DNA of 64,000 nucleotides, taken from NCBI GenBank assembly GCA_016744455.1, contig JADGEI010000003.1:62001-126000 (forward strand). Reading direction: 5' to 3'. Below are positions 9,840 to 18,722 of the stretch, piece by piece. The position numbers and the translations under genes were made by a program. Every line of letters begins with the position of its first letter. Position 1 is the first letter of the stretch. The DNA comes from Alcanivoracaceae bacterium. GTDB lineage: Bacteria > Pseudomonadota > Gammaproteobacteria > Xanthomonadales > Marinicellaceae. The notes beneath the pieces were generated by a model. It was not told where the DNA came from. It did no database searches and was given only the letters and a program-made list of their open reading frames with translations.

Positions 9840-10274
9840 ATGAAATTTAAACCTTGGTTTAAAAAAATACTCTACACGACTCTTGTCATAAGCTGGTGTA
9901 CAGGGTTATCGTACTATATTGCAAACAACTGGTTCATGATAGACGGTGAATTTGGACCAGAAAAACAACCATGGCAGTATAATGTATTAATGCTTCATGG
10001 TGCAGCTGCTTTTATTATGTTGATGGCTTTCGGCTCCATACTAACCCATCATGTTCCAAATGTGTGGCGAACCAAACGTTTAAGGAAAATTGGCATCACT
10101 TTAACTAGCTTTATTGTGATTCAATCGTTATCAGCCTATCTTCTTTATTATTTAGCCAACGAATTCATTAGGGATATAACATCTTATCTTCACTTAATCA
10201 TCGGATTAAGCCTTCCACTAGCCTTGATTTTACATATCATAATCGGTAAAAAAAAGCCGTTCAAAAAACAATAA
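9840..10274 (+). CDS. Four-helix membrane protein, putative di-haem cytochrome b
   Basis: A 144-residue inner-membrane protein from the ATG at 9840; upstream TTG (9801) and ATG (9810) lie inside the predicted promoter. Four hydrophobic helices are seen near residues 10-30, 48-68, 82-104 and 115-136. Helix 2 starts with MLHGAAAF and ends with LTHHVP; helix 4 starts with YLHLIIG and ends with LILHIIIG. Helices 2 and 4 have the same orientation, so the four His positions would give two bis-His haem sites, one at each membrane face, as in small b-type cytochromes and DUF4405-like proteins. I infer electron transfer across the inner membrane, possibly to the exported FMN protein encoded at 12490. 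The haem role is predicted and not shown. Confidence 0.65.
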   Translation: MKFKPWFKKILYTTLVISWCTGLSYYIANNWFMIDGEFGPEKQPWQYNVLMLHGAAAFIMLMAFGSILTHHVPNVWRTKRLRKIGITLTSFIVIQSLSAYLLYYLANEFIRDITSYLHLIIGLSLPLALILHIIIGKKKPFKKQ

Positions 10275-10307: not shown

Positions 10308-10336
10308 TTGCTAATGAGAATGATTATCATTACACT
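10308..10336 (+). promoter_or_regulatory. Fur box in the promoter of the Fur-like gene
   Basis: The 19-mer at 10316-10334 (GAGAATGATTATCATTACA) matches the Fur consensus at 15 of 19 positions and contains a perfect palindrome AATGAT-T-ATCATT. It fills the spacer of a promoter-like pair, TTGCTA (10308-10313) and TACACT (10331-10336), 17 bases apart. Repression by Fe-Fur is the simplest reading. Confidence 0.75.
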
Positions 10337-10381
10337 GTATCTTAATGGTTTCCCCTCAAACCATTTTTGTTAAGTTAGTTT

Positions 10382-10470
10382 AATTGTGAACTGAATAATT
10401 TATTACACAATAATAGGTATTGTCTTTTTCCACTCCTTAAGATTGTACCGCCTCAATTCAGTTCACAGTT
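10382..10470. repeat. 15-bp inverted repeat in leader of Fur-like gene
   Basis: AATTGTGAACTGAAT (10382-10396) and ATTCAGTTCACAGTT (10456-10470) pair over 15 positions with a single mismatch, enclosing a 59-base loop. They lie between the Fur box and the start codon at 10527, so they would be in the mRNA leader. They could be an RNA structure, a distant pair of operator half-sites, or remains of a small element. Confidence 0.7.
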
Positions 10471-10526
10471 ATCTACTCTACAATTAATCTTTTTATATGT
10501 CTCATACCGATAATCGGGGAAAATTT

Positions 10527-11168
10527 ATGAATACAAATAGTTACAAGCTGAGTTTAAAACAACACAATAATCAAACCTGTCTACAATTGCATCAAAATGG
10601 TTTGCAAATAAGAAAATGGTTTGGTTCTTTTGCTACCATGGTTTTTAATAGGATCATAAGGAAATATTCAACTATCAAACAAAGTCAAACAACTGCCTAT
10701 TTAAGGAAAAACCAGATGCATGGATTGTTTACCGAAGTTACTTGTTTATATCAGCAGGCACTATGTCATTACAAAGTAGAGCAGGACTTGATAAAAATTA
10801 AACCCCCTAAAAACTATTGCTGTATTGCAGAGTCCTTATTATTACATATTCGCATGAACGAGATTCACCCAAGCCATGATGACTTACTCTGCTTCTTCTT
10901 AGATGTCTATCAAAATCGCGATTATAAAATTTTCTCAGAAACAATAACACTATTATTAAACCATAACTTAATACAAGTAATAAATACAACGTGTGGAAAA
11001 ATATTCTACGATAAAAACCCCGAACCCCATGACCACATCTATTTTAAAGAGCACGACAAACTAGTAGATTGTGACAACGAAACTTCCTCATTTCTAGAAA
11101 GTTTAACTCATGTCAAAATCGATACCTCAGACGAAGCCAATATTTACTGCATTTCTGAAATTAAATAA
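10527..11168 (+). CDS. Divergent Fur-family-like protein
   Basis: A 213-residue protein; the ATG at 10527 is chosen over one at 10497 because GGGGA lies seven bases upstream. The N-terminal 100 residues are unlike anything I recognise. From about residue 112 it follows the Fur pattern: HPSHDDLLCFFLDVYQN (compare HxSAEDLY), a helix KIFSETITLLLNHNLIQVI where Fur has its recognition helix and LATVYRTL motif, then CGKIFYDKNPEPHDHIYF, matching the Fur segment GK-x-x-Y-E-x-x-x-x-H-H-x-H. The HDH metal motif is kept, but the CxxC of the structural zinc site is missing (HIYFKEHDKLVDCD), and the recognition helix lacks the usual TVYR. It may be an altered metal sensor or a non-DNA-binding relative. 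Confidence 0.6.
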   Translation: MNTNSYKLSLKQHNNQTCLQLHQNGLQIRKWFGSFATMVFNRIIRKYSTIKQSQTTAYLRKNQMHGLFTEVTCLYQQALCHYKVEQDLIKIKPPKNYCCIAESLLLHIRMNEIHPSHDDLLCFFLDVYQNRDYKIFSETITLLLNHNLIQVINTTCGKIFYDKNPEPHDHIYFKEHDKLVDCDNETSSFLESLTHVKIDTSDEANIYCISEIK

Positions 11169-11183
11169 ATAAAATATTTTAAT

Positions 11184-11216
11184 CTTATTGATTATCATTT
11201 TCATTTGCATTACAAT
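11184..11216 (+). promoter_or_regulatory. Fur-box-like promoter of porin/FMN-protein operon
   Basis: The 19-mer at 11184-11202 (CTTATTGATTATCATTTTC) matches the Fur consensus at 14 of 19. It overlaps TTGATT (11188-11193), which with TACAAT (11211-11216) makes a 17-base-spaced promoter. The core ATCATT..CATTTGCAT is shared with the promoter at 9784. Confidence 0.65.
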
Positions 11217-11253: not shown

Positions 11254-12471
11254 ATGATCAAAAACACCTTATTGGTAACCACTCTTATTGGATGTGGAAT
11301 GAATACCGCAAACGCTACTGAAACACCAAGTGCAGCTGAAATGTGGAGAATCATCCAACAACAACAAGCCACAATTGAACAATTAAAATCTCAAATAAAC
11401 AGCACTTCTCAAAAAATAGTAAAACAACAAGAAAAAGTTGAACAAACAGCCCAAGTCATCGAAGTTATCAGCGACTCAATAGATAACTCAACAACTCAAC
11501 AAGAGTCAAAATATAAATTTGGTGGTTATGGCGAACTTCATTATGGCAATACCGACAAAGGCAACACAATTGATTTCCATCGTTTTGTGCTTTTCAACGG
11601 CTATCAATTCAATGAAAGCACACGATTCTATTCAGAATTAGAAATTGAACACGCCTTAAGTGGCAATGGTAAACCCGGTGAAGTAGAAGTAGAACAAGCC
11701 TTTATCGAACACAGGTTTAATCAAAACAGTAAAATGACAGCTGGTGTATCACTGCTACCTGTTGGTATATTAAATGAAACACACGAACCTAATACTTTTT
11801 ATGGCGTGGAGCGAAACAACGTAGAAAAAAACATCATCCCTGCCACATGGTGGTCAGCTGGATTAGGCTTTTCTCAAGAAGTTAGTAACACATTAGGTTT
11901 AGATATCTACGTCGGTGATGGGTTAAATGTTCCTACATCTGGTTCTAAAGCCTTTTTAATTCGATCAGGTCGACAAAAAGTAGCTAAAGCAACTGCCAAT
12001 GATGGGTCAGTAACAGGCCGTGTAAGATTTAACCCTCTTAACAACTTACAGTTAAATGCCACGTTAATGTACCAACAAGATATCACTCAAGGTGCTTTAG
12101 GTATAAGTGCCATGTTGTTCGAAGCCAATGCTCAATATACAACCAATGGATTCACCCTAAAAGCCCTTTATGCGGCATGGAATTTAGATGACCAAGTGAA
12201 TGCCATTGCAGCTGGGAGAGAGGAGCAATCTGGTTACTTCATTGAACCATCCTATCGTTTTGGCTCCAGCAATCAGTACGGTATTTTTGCCCGTTATGCC
12301 AATTGGGATAACAATGCAGGGAATGATAATGTCGACACAGATATCACCCAAATTGATCTTGGATTTAACTATTGGCTGACACCTAGGGTAGTCTTTAAAG
12401 CCGATTATCAAGACCAATCTGGTGCCTCGGATGAGGATGGTATTCACTTAGGTGTTGGCTACTCATTTTAA
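11254..12471 (+). CDS. Outer-membrane porin with N-terminal coiled coil
   Basis: A 405-residue outer-membrane protein with AAGGA upstream of its ATG. A signal peptide (MIKNTLLVTTLIGCGMNTANA) is followed by a coiled coil near 30-85 (MWRIIQQQQATIEQLKSQ and a long Gln/Lys/Glu run), as in porins whose periplasmic trimer stalk contacts peptidoglycan. From about residue 88 (YKFGGYGELHYG) alternating beta strands run to a C-terminal aromatic, GIHLGVGYSF, which fits the BAM recognition end. It resembles the phosphate-selective OprO/OprP-type porins in overall look, but substrate cannot be read from this. It is 18 bases upstream of the FMN-binding gene and behind a Fur-box promoter, so its expression probably rises under iron limitation. 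Confidence 0.85.
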   Translation: MIKNTLLVTTLIGCGMNTANATETPSAAEMWRIIQQQQATIEQLKSQINSTSQKIVKQQEKVEQTAQVIEVISDSIDNSTTQQESKYKFGGYGELHYGNTDKGNTIDFHRFVLFNGYQFNESTRFYSELEIEHALSGNGKPGEVEVEQAFIEHRFNQNSKMTAGVSLLPVGILNETHEPNTFYGVERNNVEKNIIPATWWSAGLGFSQEVSNTLGLDIYVGDGLNVPTSGSKAFLIRSGRQKVAKATANDGSVTGRVRFNPLNNLQLNATLMYQQDITQGALGISAMLFEANAQYTTNGFTLKALYAAWNLDDQVNAIAAGREEQSGYFIEPSYRFGSSNQYGIFARYANWDNNAGNDNVDTDITQIDLGFNYWLTPRVVFKADYQDQSGASDEDGIHLGVGYSF

Positions 12472-12489
12472 GAGTTTAATGAACTATTT

Positions 12490-13035
12490 ATGACACGTTT
12501 TCATCTACAGAAATTATTCATATTTAACAACAAAGGGCTTTTGCACACGGCCCTTTTTGTTGTTTTAGCACTATTTTTTACAACGACAATTCATGCCAAA
12601 CAGTCAGCTATTATTACTCAATTTTTAACTAAAACATTTCAACAAGATCCCCCCAAATCCCAACGTCTTTGGATAAATCAAGCAAACAAAGAAACCATAA
12701 AACGTCGACACAACCCAAGTCATATCAACCTAAACTATAAGTATTGGCAACTTGGTGAAAAAACCATATGGATATTGAATGAAATAGGGAAAGAAAGAAA
12801 CATAACCACGGGTATCGTAATTGAGAATAACAGCGTTAAAAACGTAGAAGTATTAATCTATCGAGAAACACGTGGAGGGCAAGTACAAAACGACCGATTT
12901 ACCCAGCAATACAAATCAAAAGACATCAACTCAAACCTCATCAAGGAAATTGACAGCATCAGCGGCGCCACACTCTCCGTAGACGCCCTTAACCGCCAAG
13001 TAAAACTAGCCCTTTGGCTAAACACCCTCAAATAA
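12490..13035 (+). CDS. Exported FMN-binding-domain protein
   Basis: A 181-residue protein with a long N-terminal signal (hydrophobic LLHTALFVVLALFFTTTIHA). The C-terminal half is an FMN_bind domain: TTGIVIENNSVKNVEVLIYRE is the conserved strand pair and DSISGATLSVDALNRQV (near 156-172) holds the S-G-A-T motif whose Thr is the site where ApbE attaches FMN through a phosphoester in NqrC, RnfG and related proteins. It would therefore be a periplasmic covalent flavoprotein. It shares a transcript with the porin, and the putative cytochrome b encoded at 9840 is a plausible electron donor. No apbE is in the window. An ApbE substrate role is known for the family; the partnership here is inference. 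Confidence 0.85.
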   Translation: MTRFHLQKLFIFNNKGLLHTALFVVLALFFTTTIHAKQSAIITQFLTKTFQQDPPKSQRLWINQANKETIKRRHNPSHINLNYKYWQLGEKTIWILNEIGKERNITTGIVIENNSVKNVEVLIYRETRGGQVQNDRFTQQYKSKDINSNLIKEIDSISGATLSVDALNRQVKLALWLNTLK

Positions 13036-13381: not shown

Positions 13382-14977
13382 ATGAATCAAGACGACATTA
13401 ACCAACTAGAAAAAGAGCTGTGGGATTCTGCAGATGATTTACGTGCTAACTCCAAGTTAACTGCTGGTGAGTACAAAGACCCGTTATTGGGTTTGGTGTT
13501 GTTGAGGTTTGCACAAAATCGATATGAGGATGCCAAGATACAGGTGGATAAAAACCTATCCATCAATCCACGTACAGGACAAAAGCGTGAAGCCACTAAA
13601 GATGATTACACCGCTGCAGGTGCTATTTTATTACCTGAAAAAGCCAAGTATGATTACCTGGCCAATCTTCCAGAAAGCACAGATATAGCAGATGCTATCA
13701 ACAATGCCATGAAGTTGATTGAGGCTGAGTATCCAGATTTAGCAGGTATCTTGCCTAAAAACTATCAAGAATTCGGTGACAAGCTGTTGCGTGATTTGGT
13801 TCGTGTGTTTAACAAAGATGCGGTACGTCATGCCAAAGGAGATGTGTTTGGTCGGATTTATGAGTTCTTCTTGATGAAATTCTCTATGCAAGGAGCTGGT
13901 GCTCAAGAAGGTGGTGAGTTCTTCACGCCTCCATCATTGGTTAATTTGATTGTGAACTTTATCAAACCAGACCATGGCATCATTCATGACCCTGCTTGTG
14001 GTTCGGGTGGAATGTTTGTCCAAACTGCACACTTTATCGAAGACCATAATCGCTCTGAAGATAAACCTCGTAGTGTTAATGAAGCCATCACTGTTTATGG
14101 AACCGAACTAAAAAGCAACAATACAAGATTAGCAAAAATGAATCTAGCTATCCATGGTATCGAAGGCAAAGTCATAGAAAGCAATAGTTTCTACACCAAT
14201 CCACATGACCTCACAGGTAAATGTGATTTTGTCATGGCTAATCCTCCCTTTAATGTGGATAAGATTGATGCAAAAAATAAATTTTTAGCAGAAGATTCTC
14301 GATTGCCCTTTGGCGCTCCACTGACAGGCAAAGGAACCATCAGCAATGGCAACTATCTATGGATGCAATACTTCTATAGCTATCTCAATGACCAAGGTCG
14401 TGCTGGCTTTGTCATGGCATCCTCAGCAACCGATGCAGGCAACAAAGAAAAACTCATCAGACAAAAGCTGATAGAAACAGGTGCGGTAGAATGCATCGTC
14501 TCTATTTCCAACAACTTCTTCTACACCCGGAGTTTGCCCTGTCATGTCTGGTTCTTTAATAAAGGCAAAAAAGCAGAGAACAAAGATAAAATCCTGATGA
14601 TAGATGCACGCAATACTTTTAGAAAAGTCTCCACCACCATTAATGACTTTGATGATGAACAACTACAAGGACTTACCGCTCTTATCAATGCCTTTAGAGG
14701 AGATGATTTAGAAGTCTATGCCGATAACAGTTGGTTTAACGAACACTTCACCGATAGCAACTACCAAGATGTCGAAGGACTGTGCAAAGTGGTTGACTTA
14801 ACAGAAATCAAAGAACAAGACTACAGCCTCACACCAGGTCGCTATGTCGGGGTCAAGATTGATATCGATATGGGCTTTGACTACCAAGGACGCATGAAAA
14901 AAATTCATCAAGAGCTAGACCAACTCAATAATGAAGCGAATGATTTAATGAAGCAAATTCAGTCTGTGAATTTTTGA
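13382..14977 (+). CDS. hsdM: Type I restriction-modification methyltransferase subunit
   Basis: This 531-residue subunit methylates adenine at the recognition site in a complex with HsdS. The helical N-terminal HsdM domain (MNQDDINQLEKELWDSADDLR onward) precedes a SAM-binding motif I, DPACGSGGMF (near 203), and the catalytic N6-adenine motif NPPF (near 288). FTPPSLVNLIV is the usual lead-in to motif I. The length is normal for the family. Its TGA overlaps the hsdS ATG by one base. The promoter is presumably in the 216-base gap after tRNA-Arg, which has no visible gene. It is intact and predicted active. Confidence 0.97.
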   Translation: MNQDDINQLEKELWDSADDLRANSKLTAGEYKDPLLGLVLLRFAQNRYEDAKIQVDKNLSINPRTGQKREATKDDYTAAGAILLPEKAKYDYLANLPESTDIADAINNAMKLIEAEYPDLAGILPKNYQEFGDKLLRDLVRVFNKDAVRHAKGDVFGRIYEFFLMKFSMQGAGAQEGGEFFTPPSLVNLIVNFIKPDHGIIHDPACGSGGMFVQTAHFIEDHNRSEDKPRSVNEAITVYGTELKSNNTRLAKMNLAIHGIEGKVIESNSFYTNPHDLTGKCDFVMANPPFNVDKIDAKNKFLAEDSRLPFGAPLTGKGTISNGNYLWMQYFYSYLNDQGRAGFVMASSATDAGNKEKLIRQKLIETGAVECIVSISNNFFYTRSLPCHVWFFNKGKKAENKDKILMIDARNTFRKVSTTINDFDDEQLQGLTALINAFRGDDLEVYADNSWFNEHFTDSNYQDVEGLCKVVDLTEIKEQDYSLTPGRYVGVKIDIDMGFDYQGRMKKIHQELDQLNNEANDLMKQIQSVNF

Positions 14978-16224
14978 TGCAAGATTGGAAAATAGTAGAA
15001 ATTGATTCTGTATGCAATAAAATAGTTGATTGTTTAAATAGAACAGCCCCTAAAGTCGACTATGAAACACCATATAAAATGATTAGAACCTCAAATGTGA
15101 GGCATGGACGAGTAAATTTAGAAAGTGTATTTTATGTCGATATGAATACATTTAAAAAATGGACAAGGAGATTAACCCCAATAAAAAATGATATTATATT
15201 AACAAGAGAAGCTCCACTGGGTGAAATTGGAATATTAAAAACAAATGAAACGGTATTCTTAGGCCAAAGAACAGTTTTGTACAGAGTGGAAGAATCAGTT
15301 TGTAATGCCCATTTTCTTTACTACTCACTATTAGCCCCATACTGCCAAGCGAATATTAAAGCATATGGTTCTGGTTCTACAGTAGAACACATGAGAGTTC
15401 CTGACTCCAAAAAAATCAAACTCAAACTTCCACCACTACCAACCCAAAAAAAAATAGCCTCCATCCTTTCTGCCTATGATGATTTAATAGAAAACAACCT
15501 CAAACGCATCAAACTACTCGAAGAAAAAGCCCAAAAAACCTATGAACAATGGTTTGTCCGCATGCAATTCCCAGGCCACGAAACCACCCCAATCAATGCA
15601 GGCACAGGATTACCAGAGGGTTGGTGCAGTAAGAGACTTGATGAAGTTGCTAAAATTAATGCTAATAGTATTAAAAAAGGATTTAATGAAAAGATTGAAT
15701 ATATCGATATTGCAAGTGTTTCTCCTGGGCAAATAAATAAGACAACATCCTTTGAATTTACTGACGCACCTGGAAGAGCCAAAAGGATTATGTTACATGG
15801 TGATATTATCTGGTCATGTGTAAGACCAAATCGTAAATCTTATGCTTATATTTGGAACCCAGAGAATAATCTAATTGCTTCAACTGGATTTTGTGTAATT
15901 TCGCCTAAATCATTACCAACTTCATATTTACTACAATTCGTTACTACAGATAGCTTTGTAGGTTATTTAAATAATAGAGCTGGAGGTGCTGCTTATCCAG
16001 CAGTAAAAGCAATAGATTTCAAAGAAGCAAAGGTCGTAGTGCCTTCAACTGAAATGGTTAATAAATATAATAATGTATTTGGGGGAAATCTTGAACTTAA
16101 GTGGGCTCTACAAGAGCAAAACCATTATCTTAAAGAAGCTAGAGACATCTTATTGCCTCGTTTAATGACAGGGATGGTTGATGTGGATAAATTGGATGCA
16201 AAAAACCAGAGACAAGAAAAATGA
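14977..16224 (+). CDS. hsdS: Type I restriction specificity subunit
   Basis: The ATG at 14977 gives 415 residues; the frame could open one codon earlier at a TTG. Two target-recognition domains (about 1-150 and 220-365) are each followed by a conserved helical spacer: LPPLPTQKKIASILSAYDDL with IKLLEEKAQKTYEQWF (near 150-190), and the C-terminal ARDILLPRLMTGMVDV. This is the full bipartite HsdS plan, so both half-sites of the DNA target are specified and there is no sign of truncation. The recognition sequence cannot be read from the protein. Its TGA overlaps the mcrB start by four bases (ATGA), giving translational coupling. Confidence 0.95.
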   Translation: MQDWKIVEIDSVCNKIVDCLNRTAPKVDYETPYKMIRTSNVRHGRVNLESVFYVDMNTFKKWTRRLTPIKNDIILTREAPLGEIGILKTNETVFLGQRTVLYRVEESVCNAHFLYYSLLAPYCQANIKAYGSGSTVEHMRVPDSKKIKLKLPPLPTQKKIASILSAYDDLIENNLKRIKLLEEKAQKTYEQWFVRMQFPGHETTPINAGTGLPEGWCSKRLDEVAKINANSIKKGFNEKIEYIDIASVSPGQINKTTSFEFTDAPGRAKRIMLHGDIIWSCVRPNRKSYAYIWNPENNLIASTGFCVISPKSLPTSYLLQFVTTDSFVGYLNNRAGGAAYPAVKAIDFKEAKVVVPSTEMVNKYNNVFGGNLELKWALQEQNHYLKEARDILLPRLMTGMVDVDKLDAKNQRQEK

Positions 16225-18722
16225 ATATATATAATCTATCTATCAGCATTAGTGATATTGATGATAAAGAATTTGAAAAGTTACTTGAGTCAAATGTAGT
16301 TAGCGTTCGTAACGATATAAAGACTAATGGAAAAAATTCTCAATGCAGTTTGTTTATTAGTGCAAAAAAAGGGGATGTTTTTTATTTGAATCGGTCTGGT
16401 TCAATTGAGTTAATTGGAATGTTTGTAGATGAAAGGCCTTTACGTTCCATAATACAAAAAAATAGCGATTGGGTTGATAGAAGTTTCAAAGTTTTAAGTA
16501 AACCTGTTTCTAAAAAGGCATTTAGTATTGCCCTTAATAAAACATGGCTTCCAAAAGATAGTTCGGAATTTATCATGATACCAAATACCGATTATTCTGA
16601 ATTTGAAAATTTAATTCTTCAACCTGTATTCAAAGTTTCGTTAGCTGATATAGAATCATTGCAAAAAGAAGAATTAATAAACACCGAACTATCAATAGAA
16701 GATTGTTTGAATCTTCAGAAAAAATTCAAAAAATTCAAGAATGATGAAAATTATTTGCTTGAGCACGTTAACAGTATTAGCAATGTTGAGTTATTGAAAA
16801 TTGCTTATCGTTACAGAGGCAGAGGAGATTTAGAGAAACAACCCGTTGTCAATTTAAGGTATCAACTGTTAATGATACTTTTAACCAAGAATAAATTATC
16901 AATCGAGTTGATTAATCAATTAAAAGATGACATAGCATCAAAGTTTGAAAAAAATGTTTTTTTATCTTGGAAACATCCCTTTAGAATTTTATATACCTTC
17001 ATGTATGGAGAATTTAAACTAAAGTTAATTAATTGTTTCGAAAAGTTAATTTTAAAACTTCAAACTGAATTAAATATTAAAGAAAATACTAATTTTAATC
17101 TAGTACACCTTGATGGTGCACAGAATCAAGGCAATAAAGAAATTTGGTTTGCAATTTATAATAATTCACATTCATCTCAGAAAACTGCAAAACAGTTGTT
17201 TTTTAAAGTAGAGGATAAGTTTGTATATGGCTTACTTTATAAACCAGACCCATCAGTAGACACAATACAAACTAAAAAAAACTTTGATTATGAACACCTA
17301 TTAAGCGTATTTGAACAGCACAAAGAACTTATTTTGAATGATGTAGCAGAGCAACACAAAGAGATTATTCAAGATGATAATCCTGATAAAAATATAATGA
17401 AAAAAAACATTTCACTAAACCAAATCTTATTCGGGCCACCTGGAACAGGAAAAACCTATCGTCTCCAACATGATTACTTTCCAAATTTCACATCCACAGT
17501 AGATTCAACTACTGTTGAACAGTATTTTACAGAGTTAGTTCAAGGCCTTTCATGGTGGCAAGTATTAGGTATTGCTTTAATTGAGAGCAACAACTCTAAA
17601 GTTAAAGAATTGGTTGAAAATAGATGGGTTCAAAAAAAAGCAGAATTATCAGAGAGTAAAAATGTACGAGCAACGGTTTGGGGAACATTGCAAATGCATA
17701 CTGTCAATGAAAGCAAAACGGTAAACTATACTAAAAGGCAACCACCTTTGATTTTTGATAAAAACCAAGATAAAAGTTGGAAGATATATGAAAGTGAAGC
17801 CAAAGAATTTTCACCTGAATTGTTTGAACATCTTGATTCAGTGGAAAATTATAAATCTAACCCTTCTAAGGTAATAAAAAGATATGAGTTTATAACATTT
17901 CATCAATCCTATGCTTATGAAGATTTTATTGAAGGAATCAAGCCTGTAATGGGTGATGAGTTTGATGACCAATCTGACTTAAAGTATGAGATTAAACCTG
18001 GGATATTTAAAACGATTTGTAAAAGGGCAGAAAGTGACCCAGATAATAATTATTGCTTGTTTATTGATGAAATCAATAGAGGGAATGTATCTCAAATTTT
18101 TGGAGAACTTATCACTTTAATTGAAGAAGACAAAAGAAAAGGTGCAAAAAATCCACTTACATCAGTTTTACCATATTCTAGAAAGAATTTTTCAGTTCCT
18201 AAAAACTTATACATCATTGGCACCATGAACACCGCAGATAGAAGTGTGGAAGCTTTGGATTCTGCATTGAGGCGAAGATTTAGTTTTACAGAAATGCCAC
18301 CAATACCCAAATTGATAAAACAATCTGATGAATTAGATAAACTAGATATAGATTTACGAAATATTTTAGAAGTTATTAATTCGAGAATAGAGGTTCTATT
18401 AGACAAAGACCATTTGATTGGTCATAGTTATTTTATGAAGGTAGAAAGTCTATTTGATTTACGCAATGCCTTTTACAATGAAATCATCCCATTACTGCAA
18501 GAGTACTTTTTCGGTGATTATGGCAAGATAACTATGGTCTTAGGTGAAGGATTTTGTCAGGTTAAAAATGATGCTAATCAAGTCAAATTTGCTGTTGATT
18601 CAAACAATGATGATATTCCAGATTATTCTGATAAATTAGTTTATAAAATTAACAACGATTTAACCGATGAAAAATTTATTGATGCAATAAATATTAAACT
18701 GCTAAATAATTCTAGTGACTAA
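16221..18722 (+). CDS. mcrB: McrB-like AAA+ GTPase/ATPase of a modification-dependent restriction system
   Basis: An 833-residue protein. The C-terminal motor has Walker A FGPPGTGKTYRLQ (near 405), Walker B NYCLFIDEINRGNVSQIFGE (near 612) and the McrB signature GTMNTADRSVEALDSALRRR (near 668). In the known McrBC system, McrB hexamers use GTP to translocate on DNA and to activate McrC. The N-terminal 140 residues (GDVFYLNRSGSIELIGMF, WVDRSFKVL) recall EVE/PUA-like modified-base readers, but I cannot be sure. Residues 150-400 are helical and unassigned. It is much longer than E. coli McrB (about 460). It overlaps hsdS by 4 bases and mcrC by 8. Confidence 0.9.
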   Translation: MNIYNLSISISDIDDKEFEKLLESNVVSVRNDIKTNGKNSQCSLFISAKKGDVFYLNRSGSIELIGMFVDERPLRSIIQKNSDWVDRSFKVLSKPVSKKAFSIALNKTWLPKDSSEFIMIPNTDYSEFENLILQPVFKVSLADIESLQKEELINTELSIEDCLNLQKKFKKFKNDENYLLEHVNSISNVELLKIAYRYRGRGDLEKQPVVNLRYQLLMILLTKNKLSIELINQLKDDIASKFEKNVFLSWKHPFRILYTFMYGEFKLKLINCFEKLILKLQTELNIKENTNFNLVHLDGAQNQGNKEIWFAIYNNSHSSQKTAKQLFFKVEDKFVYGLLYKPDPSVDTIQTKKNFDYEHLLSVFEQHKELILNDVAEQHKEIIQDDNPDKNIMKKNISLNQILFGPPGTGKTYRLQHDYFPNFTSTVDSTTVEQYFTELVQGLSWWQVLGIALIESNNSKVKELVENRWVQKKAELSESKNVRATVWGTLQMHTVNESKTVNYTKRQPPLIFDKNQDKSWKIYESEAKEFSPELFEHLDSVENYKSNPSKVIKRYEFITFHQSYAYEDFIEGIKPVMGDEFDDQSDLKYEIKPGIFKTICKRAESDPDNNYCLFIDEINRGNVSQIFGELITLIEEDKRKGAKNPLTSVLPYSRKNFSVPKNLYIIGTMNTADRSVEALDSALRRRFSFTEMPPIPKLIKQSDELDKLDIDLRNILEVINSRIEVLLDKDHLIGHSYFMKVESLFDLRNAFYNEIIPLLQEYFFGDYGKITMVLGEGFCQVKNDANQVKFAVDSNNDDIPDYSDKLVYKINNDLTDEKFIDAINIKLLNNSSD

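Follow-up and report, generated by a model that had tools for sequence, protein, structure and literature searches.

An Irr-like winged helix that lacks its recognition helix, fused to an undescribed domain: a probable haem or iron co-regulator

INTRODUCTION

HemP and HmuP are small haem-binding regulators that lack a typical DNA-binding domain and act either on 5′ leaders or through a partner, which may be Irr or Fur (PMC11442138, PMC9131926). How they regulate haem uptake without such a domain is unsettled, with Irr and Fur being the suspected partners. In Irr itself, a histidine cluster forms the haem site (PMC4700492, PMC11442138). The operon type in which hemP is found with a TonB receptor gene is Fur repressed and serves hemin uptake in Stenotrophomonas, where deletion of smlt0796 or smlt0797, located behind hemP-hemA, had no clear effect (PMC9241770); such accessory genes may therefore matter little. 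Repression by Fur is relieved by Fpa/YlaN, a protein that binds both Fe(II) and Fur (PMC11559061).

Here, we describe a protein in which a winged helix of the type found in Irr is joined to a domain that elsewhere occurs in haem-uptake operons. Judged by its sequence, it is a Fur-superfamily variant with an undescribed domain, both of them new, and its probable role is that of a haem or iron co-regulator, not of a repressor. If this is true, an Irr sensor and a haem-operon domain combined without DNA reading would allow haem sensing by partner contact to be tested directly in a natural protein, and the fusion would add an undescribed iron-starvation domain.

RESULTS

The gene was studied in the window, by which we mean the whole stretch of 64,000 nucleotides of DNA that was analysed. 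The sequence-only reading had placed it at positions 10527 to 11168, behind a Fur box, and it was right on both counts. The mechanical open reading frame begins at 10497; the ATG there is unsupported by the relatives, whose starts agree with 10527 instead, which has a GGGGA Shine-Dalgarno-like stretch upstream.

10527 to 11168, plus strand: fusion gene, 213 amino acids, a new N-domain and a predicted Irr-like winged helix without recognition helix
10310 to 10334, unstranded: Fur box of the fusion gene, two overlapping 19-mers that each match the consensus at 16/19 positions (GATAATGATAATCATTATC)

Searches of related genomes yielded 16 fusion proteins in 15 genomes, which belong to two genera of one family. 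The fusion is present in 3 of 11 genomes of the window's genus (g1) and in 12 of 18 genomes of the sister genus (g3). In the 350 bp upstream of each of the 16 fusion genes there is a Fur-box match of 14/19 or better; ~5% of random 350-bp windows from the same loci reach that score. The only PF01475 proteins of the window's genome are an ordinary Fur and a Zur (L001 1486-1884; L002 1468-1926), and no Irr-like gene was found in that genome. A plasmid or viral origin was considered and rejected, as there was no match.

A leader of ~190 nt (10335 to 10526) separates the Fur box from the start codon.

10344 to 10471, plus strand: structured 5′ leader, with a hairpin (10344-10351/10358-10365) and a long hairpin (10381-10396/10456-10471)

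The 16-bp hairpin has a z score of -4.7, and a second leader hairpin carries a T run. The relative L003 also has a leader hairpin, of other sequence, and most other members have short leaders. A known RNA in the leader was rejected since Rfam gave no match.

The C-terminal half of the protein contains the segment that had been read as Fur-like, including the HPSHDDL motif, which begins at residue 114.

10812 to 11069, plus strand: predicted Fur/Irr-like domain, residues 96-181, three helices and a wing followed by the HxH segment

Single-sequence searches with the window protein matched PerR and Irr only weakly, and profile matches of the C-domain were likewise weak (NCBIfam PerR, E=2e-4; PDB 5nl9, E=0.009). 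The Pfam cut-off of PF01475 was reached by no member, with the window protein giving no match and one of 14 relatives matching at E=0.07. A profile built from 14 relatives weakly matched Fur-family PDB entries; of the 369 genomes of the class, 131 contain matches to it, which with few exceptions cover the C-domain only. The nine best of these matches were read and are ordinary Irr-like regulators, in eight of which an FYDSNT-type segment with HxH accompanies an SKATVYNTL helix. Chance does not account for the resemblance to Fur, given that this recurs in 16 proteins and that the family profile retrieves ordinary Fur-superfamily genes. When compared by hhalign, the family scored 98.6% (P=5e-16, ~103 columns) against 10 Irr-like sequences and 92% (P=6e-7) against Fur, a ranking that is somewhat favoured because the Irr-like set was chosen for matching the family; the NCBIfam matches agree with this order. 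No relation to Zur (1.5%) or to the MarR control (0.1%) was detected by hhalign. A 100/100 branch of the tree sets Fur and Zur apart from the family and the Irr-like rows, and the fusion family forms one clade on a very long stem (~3 changes per site).

Structural prediction points in the same direction. A model of residues 85-213 has a helix-helix-helix-strand-strand order, with a pLDDT of ~70-84 over residues 96-167, which is moderate only and comes from a two-sequence alignment. Its 16 best PDB matches are all members of the Fur family, the best with E=2.4e-3 and a TM score of ~0.45 and none below E=0.001. AlphaFold gave no usable fold for the full-length protein from two sequences (pLDDT 33). 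A profile or structure search, which had been proposed as a check, thus does find the Fur fold. As assessed by profiles, tree, and model, the C-domain is a Fur-superfamily winged helix of Irr-like ancestry and not a Fur or Zur. The earlier label of a Fur relative therefore holds for the superfamily, on the strength of profiles and model, and fails for the parent, which hhalign and the tree place with the Irr-like proteins instead of Fur itself. That the window protein has no CxxC, and hence no structural-zinc cysteines, had been recognised correctly; Irr-like proteins likewise have no CxxC, so the missing cysteines are inherited. The fusion shares with Fur and PerR (PF01475) the same predicted fold and weak profile matches, but it differs in having no DNA-reading residues and no member at the Pfam cut-off.

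The residues through which Fur-superfamily proteins read DNA and those at the sensing site have fared differently.

10923 to 10961, plus strand: recognition-helix equivalent, residues 133-145, with T54, Y56, and R57 replaced in 16/16 relatives
10866 to 10868, plus strand: His114, equivalent of Fur His33 and putative sensing-site ligand, kept in 15/16
11004 to 11036, plus strand: FYDKNPEPHDH, residues 160-170, with Asp162 at the Fur Glu81 position and the HxH pair; it matches the Irr-like FYDSNTxPHHH

In E. coli Fur numbering, R19, T54, Y56, and R57 (N57 in Irr) are absent from 16/16 relatives. The absence of a TVYR-type helix, already noted for the window protein, which has neither TVYR nor TVYN, therefore extends to the whole family. 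The recognition-helix equivalent is mostly acidic (mean net charge, -1.9, versus +0.7 in Irr-like proteins) and poorly conserved, the best-conserved block being FYDKNPxPHDH. Among the relatives, His33 is kept in 15/16, Asp at position 81 in 16/16, and the HxH pair in 15/16; in Fur structures these are sensing-site positions. The lone exception for both His33 and HxH is the second copy of genome G014 (L022 7995-8594), in which both are lost. The conservation check suggested in the sequence-only reading thus gives a split answer, with the HxH of the HDH region conserved (15/16) and the recognition helix not (0/16 with T/Y/R or N). Since the reading residues are lost and the sensing ligands kept, we infer a sensor that does not read DNA. 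Compared with Irr-like regulators, the fusion shares homology of the C-domain, His33, Asp81, the HxH segment (FYDxN...HxH), and the absence of CxxC, but it has no SKATVYNTL recognition helix, no PTxQR segment, and no Cys-Pro haem motif, and it has an extra N-domain as well as a short, unconserved C terminus: across the 16 relatives, the dimerisation part beyond the HxH segment is short and not conserved.

The long N-terminal half had been called unrecognised, and indeed it has no match in Pfam or PDB.

10527 to 10796, plus strand: N-domain, residues 1-90, undescribed, standing alone elsewhere
L117 3246-4763, L118 7515-11519, and L122 1264-2704: operons of hemP, TonB receptor, DUF6607, and small protein genes

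The N-domain comprises ~90 residues with the motifs LRxWfGxxA and KxxAQxLLxxA. Standalone open reading frames for it, of 85-141 amino acids, were found in two other families, namely, in five f9 genomes and one f8 genome. In three of these six genomes the gene has its own Fur box; in the other three it directly follows the genes for a TonB receptor and DUF6607 and closes the operon, with hemP heading the same contigs behind Fur boxes. Within the order, DUF6607 often accompanies a TonB receptor (58 of 200 genomes), and no mention of it was found in a literature search. Sampling 30 DUF6607 loci of the order showed a TonB receptor close by in most but an N-domain gene in only 2; that gene is therefore an optional operon member. 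The possibility that the N-domain is a HemP homologue, given similar strand patterns, was rejected (hhalign 2.8%, in a different register and barely above shuffles), and the fusion showed no homology to PF10636 (HemP/HmuP) by hhalign and no Pfam match. A match of the N-domain within a long protein of genome G350 (E=4e-6), which resembles a JmjC-type oxygenase, was judged to be chance.

In the sister genus, the fusion sits between hutU and trmB (hut and trmB were named by eye from sequence), and the genes that constantly accompany it there, hut genes, trmB, and a transporter, are not haem genes; only a minority of fusion genes adjoin transport genes. In genome G019, the order is Fur box, hemP, and directly thereafter the fusion, while G025, which has no fusion, carries a Fur box and hemP alone beside hutU at the same site. 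Among the 18 sister-genus genomes, hemP was found in 1 of 12 with the fusion versus 3 of 6 without it (Fisher p=0.08; some genomes are incomplete). The second fusion copy of G014 (L022) is located inside a TonB-DUF6607-HmuTUV locus. Neither hemP nor DUF6607 was found in the window's genome, and the link to haem is therefore indirect there.

DISCUSSION

The data presented here describe an Irr-like regulator that has lost its reading helix, kept its ligands, and been joined to a domain of haem operons, and it is for these reasons that we favour a co-regulator. With middling confidence, we propose that the fusion may be a Fur-repressed, haem- or iron-sensing co-regulator of haem or iron uptake that does not read DNA, that is, a functional counterpart of HemP/HmuP that uses an Irr sensor. 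Under iron shortage, Fur would release the gene and the fusion protein would be made. His114, Asp162, and His168/His170 of the Irr-derived half might then coordinate haem or a divalent metal, and the bound state could change partner binding by the N-domain or by a face of the winged helix, candidate partners being Fur, RNA polymerase, and a leader mRNA; such contact would tune the expression of uptake genes. A narrower version, in which a Fur-superfamily haem sensor works through an undescribed partner-binding domain without DNA reading, combines Irr-type sensing with HmuP-like co-activation in a single chain, and replaces hemP in one family, is conceivable but rather doubtful.

The likeness to HemP/HmuP/ChuP (PF10636) lies in the predicted control by Fur, in a working DNA-binding domain not being expected, in the occurrence of the N-domain in haem-uptake operons, and in the site, as the sister-genus fusion sits with or in place of hemP. 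However, there is no sequence homology, the lengths differ (~60 versus 213 amino acids), and the fusion has an Irr-type sensor domain. A place in a haem locus is seen for the standalone N-domain gene in three genomes and for the G014 copy, and a hemP neighbour in G019, but neither is seen in the window. It is of note, as a point against haem, that the copy in a haem locus (L022) is the one without His33 and HxH.

Of the three options raised in the sequence-only reading, namely, an altered sensor, an anti-repressor that dimerises with Fur, and a redox- or haem-sensing derivative, the altered sensor or haem/redox derivative is the best supported; it fits best because His33, Asp81, and HxH are kept and because the N-domain is found in haem-uptake operons. 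An anti-repressor would accumulate when Fur is off and keep Fur off DNA, through the Fur-like fold or the N-domain, until iron or haem returns. The Fur box before every fusion gene is a feedback layout, the Fur-like fold is predicted to be retained, and a precedent exists in Fpa/YlaN, which binds Fe(II) and Fur and relieves repression (PMC11559061) and with which the fusion may share the nature of a non-DNA-binding iron protein acting on Fur. We nevertheless regard this as unlikely, since a C-terminal dimerisation part so short and unconserved does not readily suggest a mixed dimer with Fur, since N-domain proteins without any Fur-like part exist, and since, of 33 genomes sampled in its family, only 15 have the fusion, whereas Fur is present in 21 of 21 genomes checked. 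Fpa/YlaN itself is known from Gram-positive bacteria, and no likeness in sequence between it and the fusion was noticed.

Winged helices can also bind DNA through other surfaces, and with a three-helix-plus-wing fold predicted, the protein could be a DNA-binding regulator after all, an altered winged helix or the N-domain reading a site near its own gene or uptake genes. Against this, which we consider quite unlikely, stand the loss of T54, Y56, R57/N57, and R19 in 16/16 relatives and a helix that is mostly acidic and among the least conserved parts, with conservation concentrated in the HxH segment and the N-domain. It is very unlikely that the Irr-derived site has simply been reused in a carrier or store, with no regulatory role, for haem or iron imported through TonB receptors: ligands of the sensing site kept without a DNA-reading helix and an N-domain gene that comes after receptor genes in haem operons would suit such a role, but the G019 arrangement couples the fusion to hemP, a regulator, and most fusion genes do not adjoin transport genes.

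The porin and FMN-binding genes next to the fusion in the window form a unit of their own.

11184 to 11208, unstranded: second Fur box, ahead of the porin gene and belonging to the porin operon, a separate transcription unit
11254 to 12471, plus strand: porin gene (neighbour; PF13609)
12490 to 13035, plus strand: FMN-binding domain protein (neighbour; PF04205)

The porin-FMN_bind(-PepSY) operon (11254 to 13035) probably serves flavin/iron reduction in response to iron. It carries a Fur box of its own and is conserved across the whole family, also where the fusion is missing. A functional tie to the fusion was rejected on this ground, and the earlier argument from nearby iron-linked redox genes is weak for the same reason. 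On the other side of the fusion, positions 9843 to 10274 encode a small membrane protein with weak similarity to cytochrome b561, relatives of which adjoin a second FMN_bind gene elsewhere (L111-L115). Further downstream, the window holds at 13382 to 18722 what seems to be a type I restriction-modification system (methylase and specificity subunit), followed by an McrB-like AAA protein, as read from sequence only.
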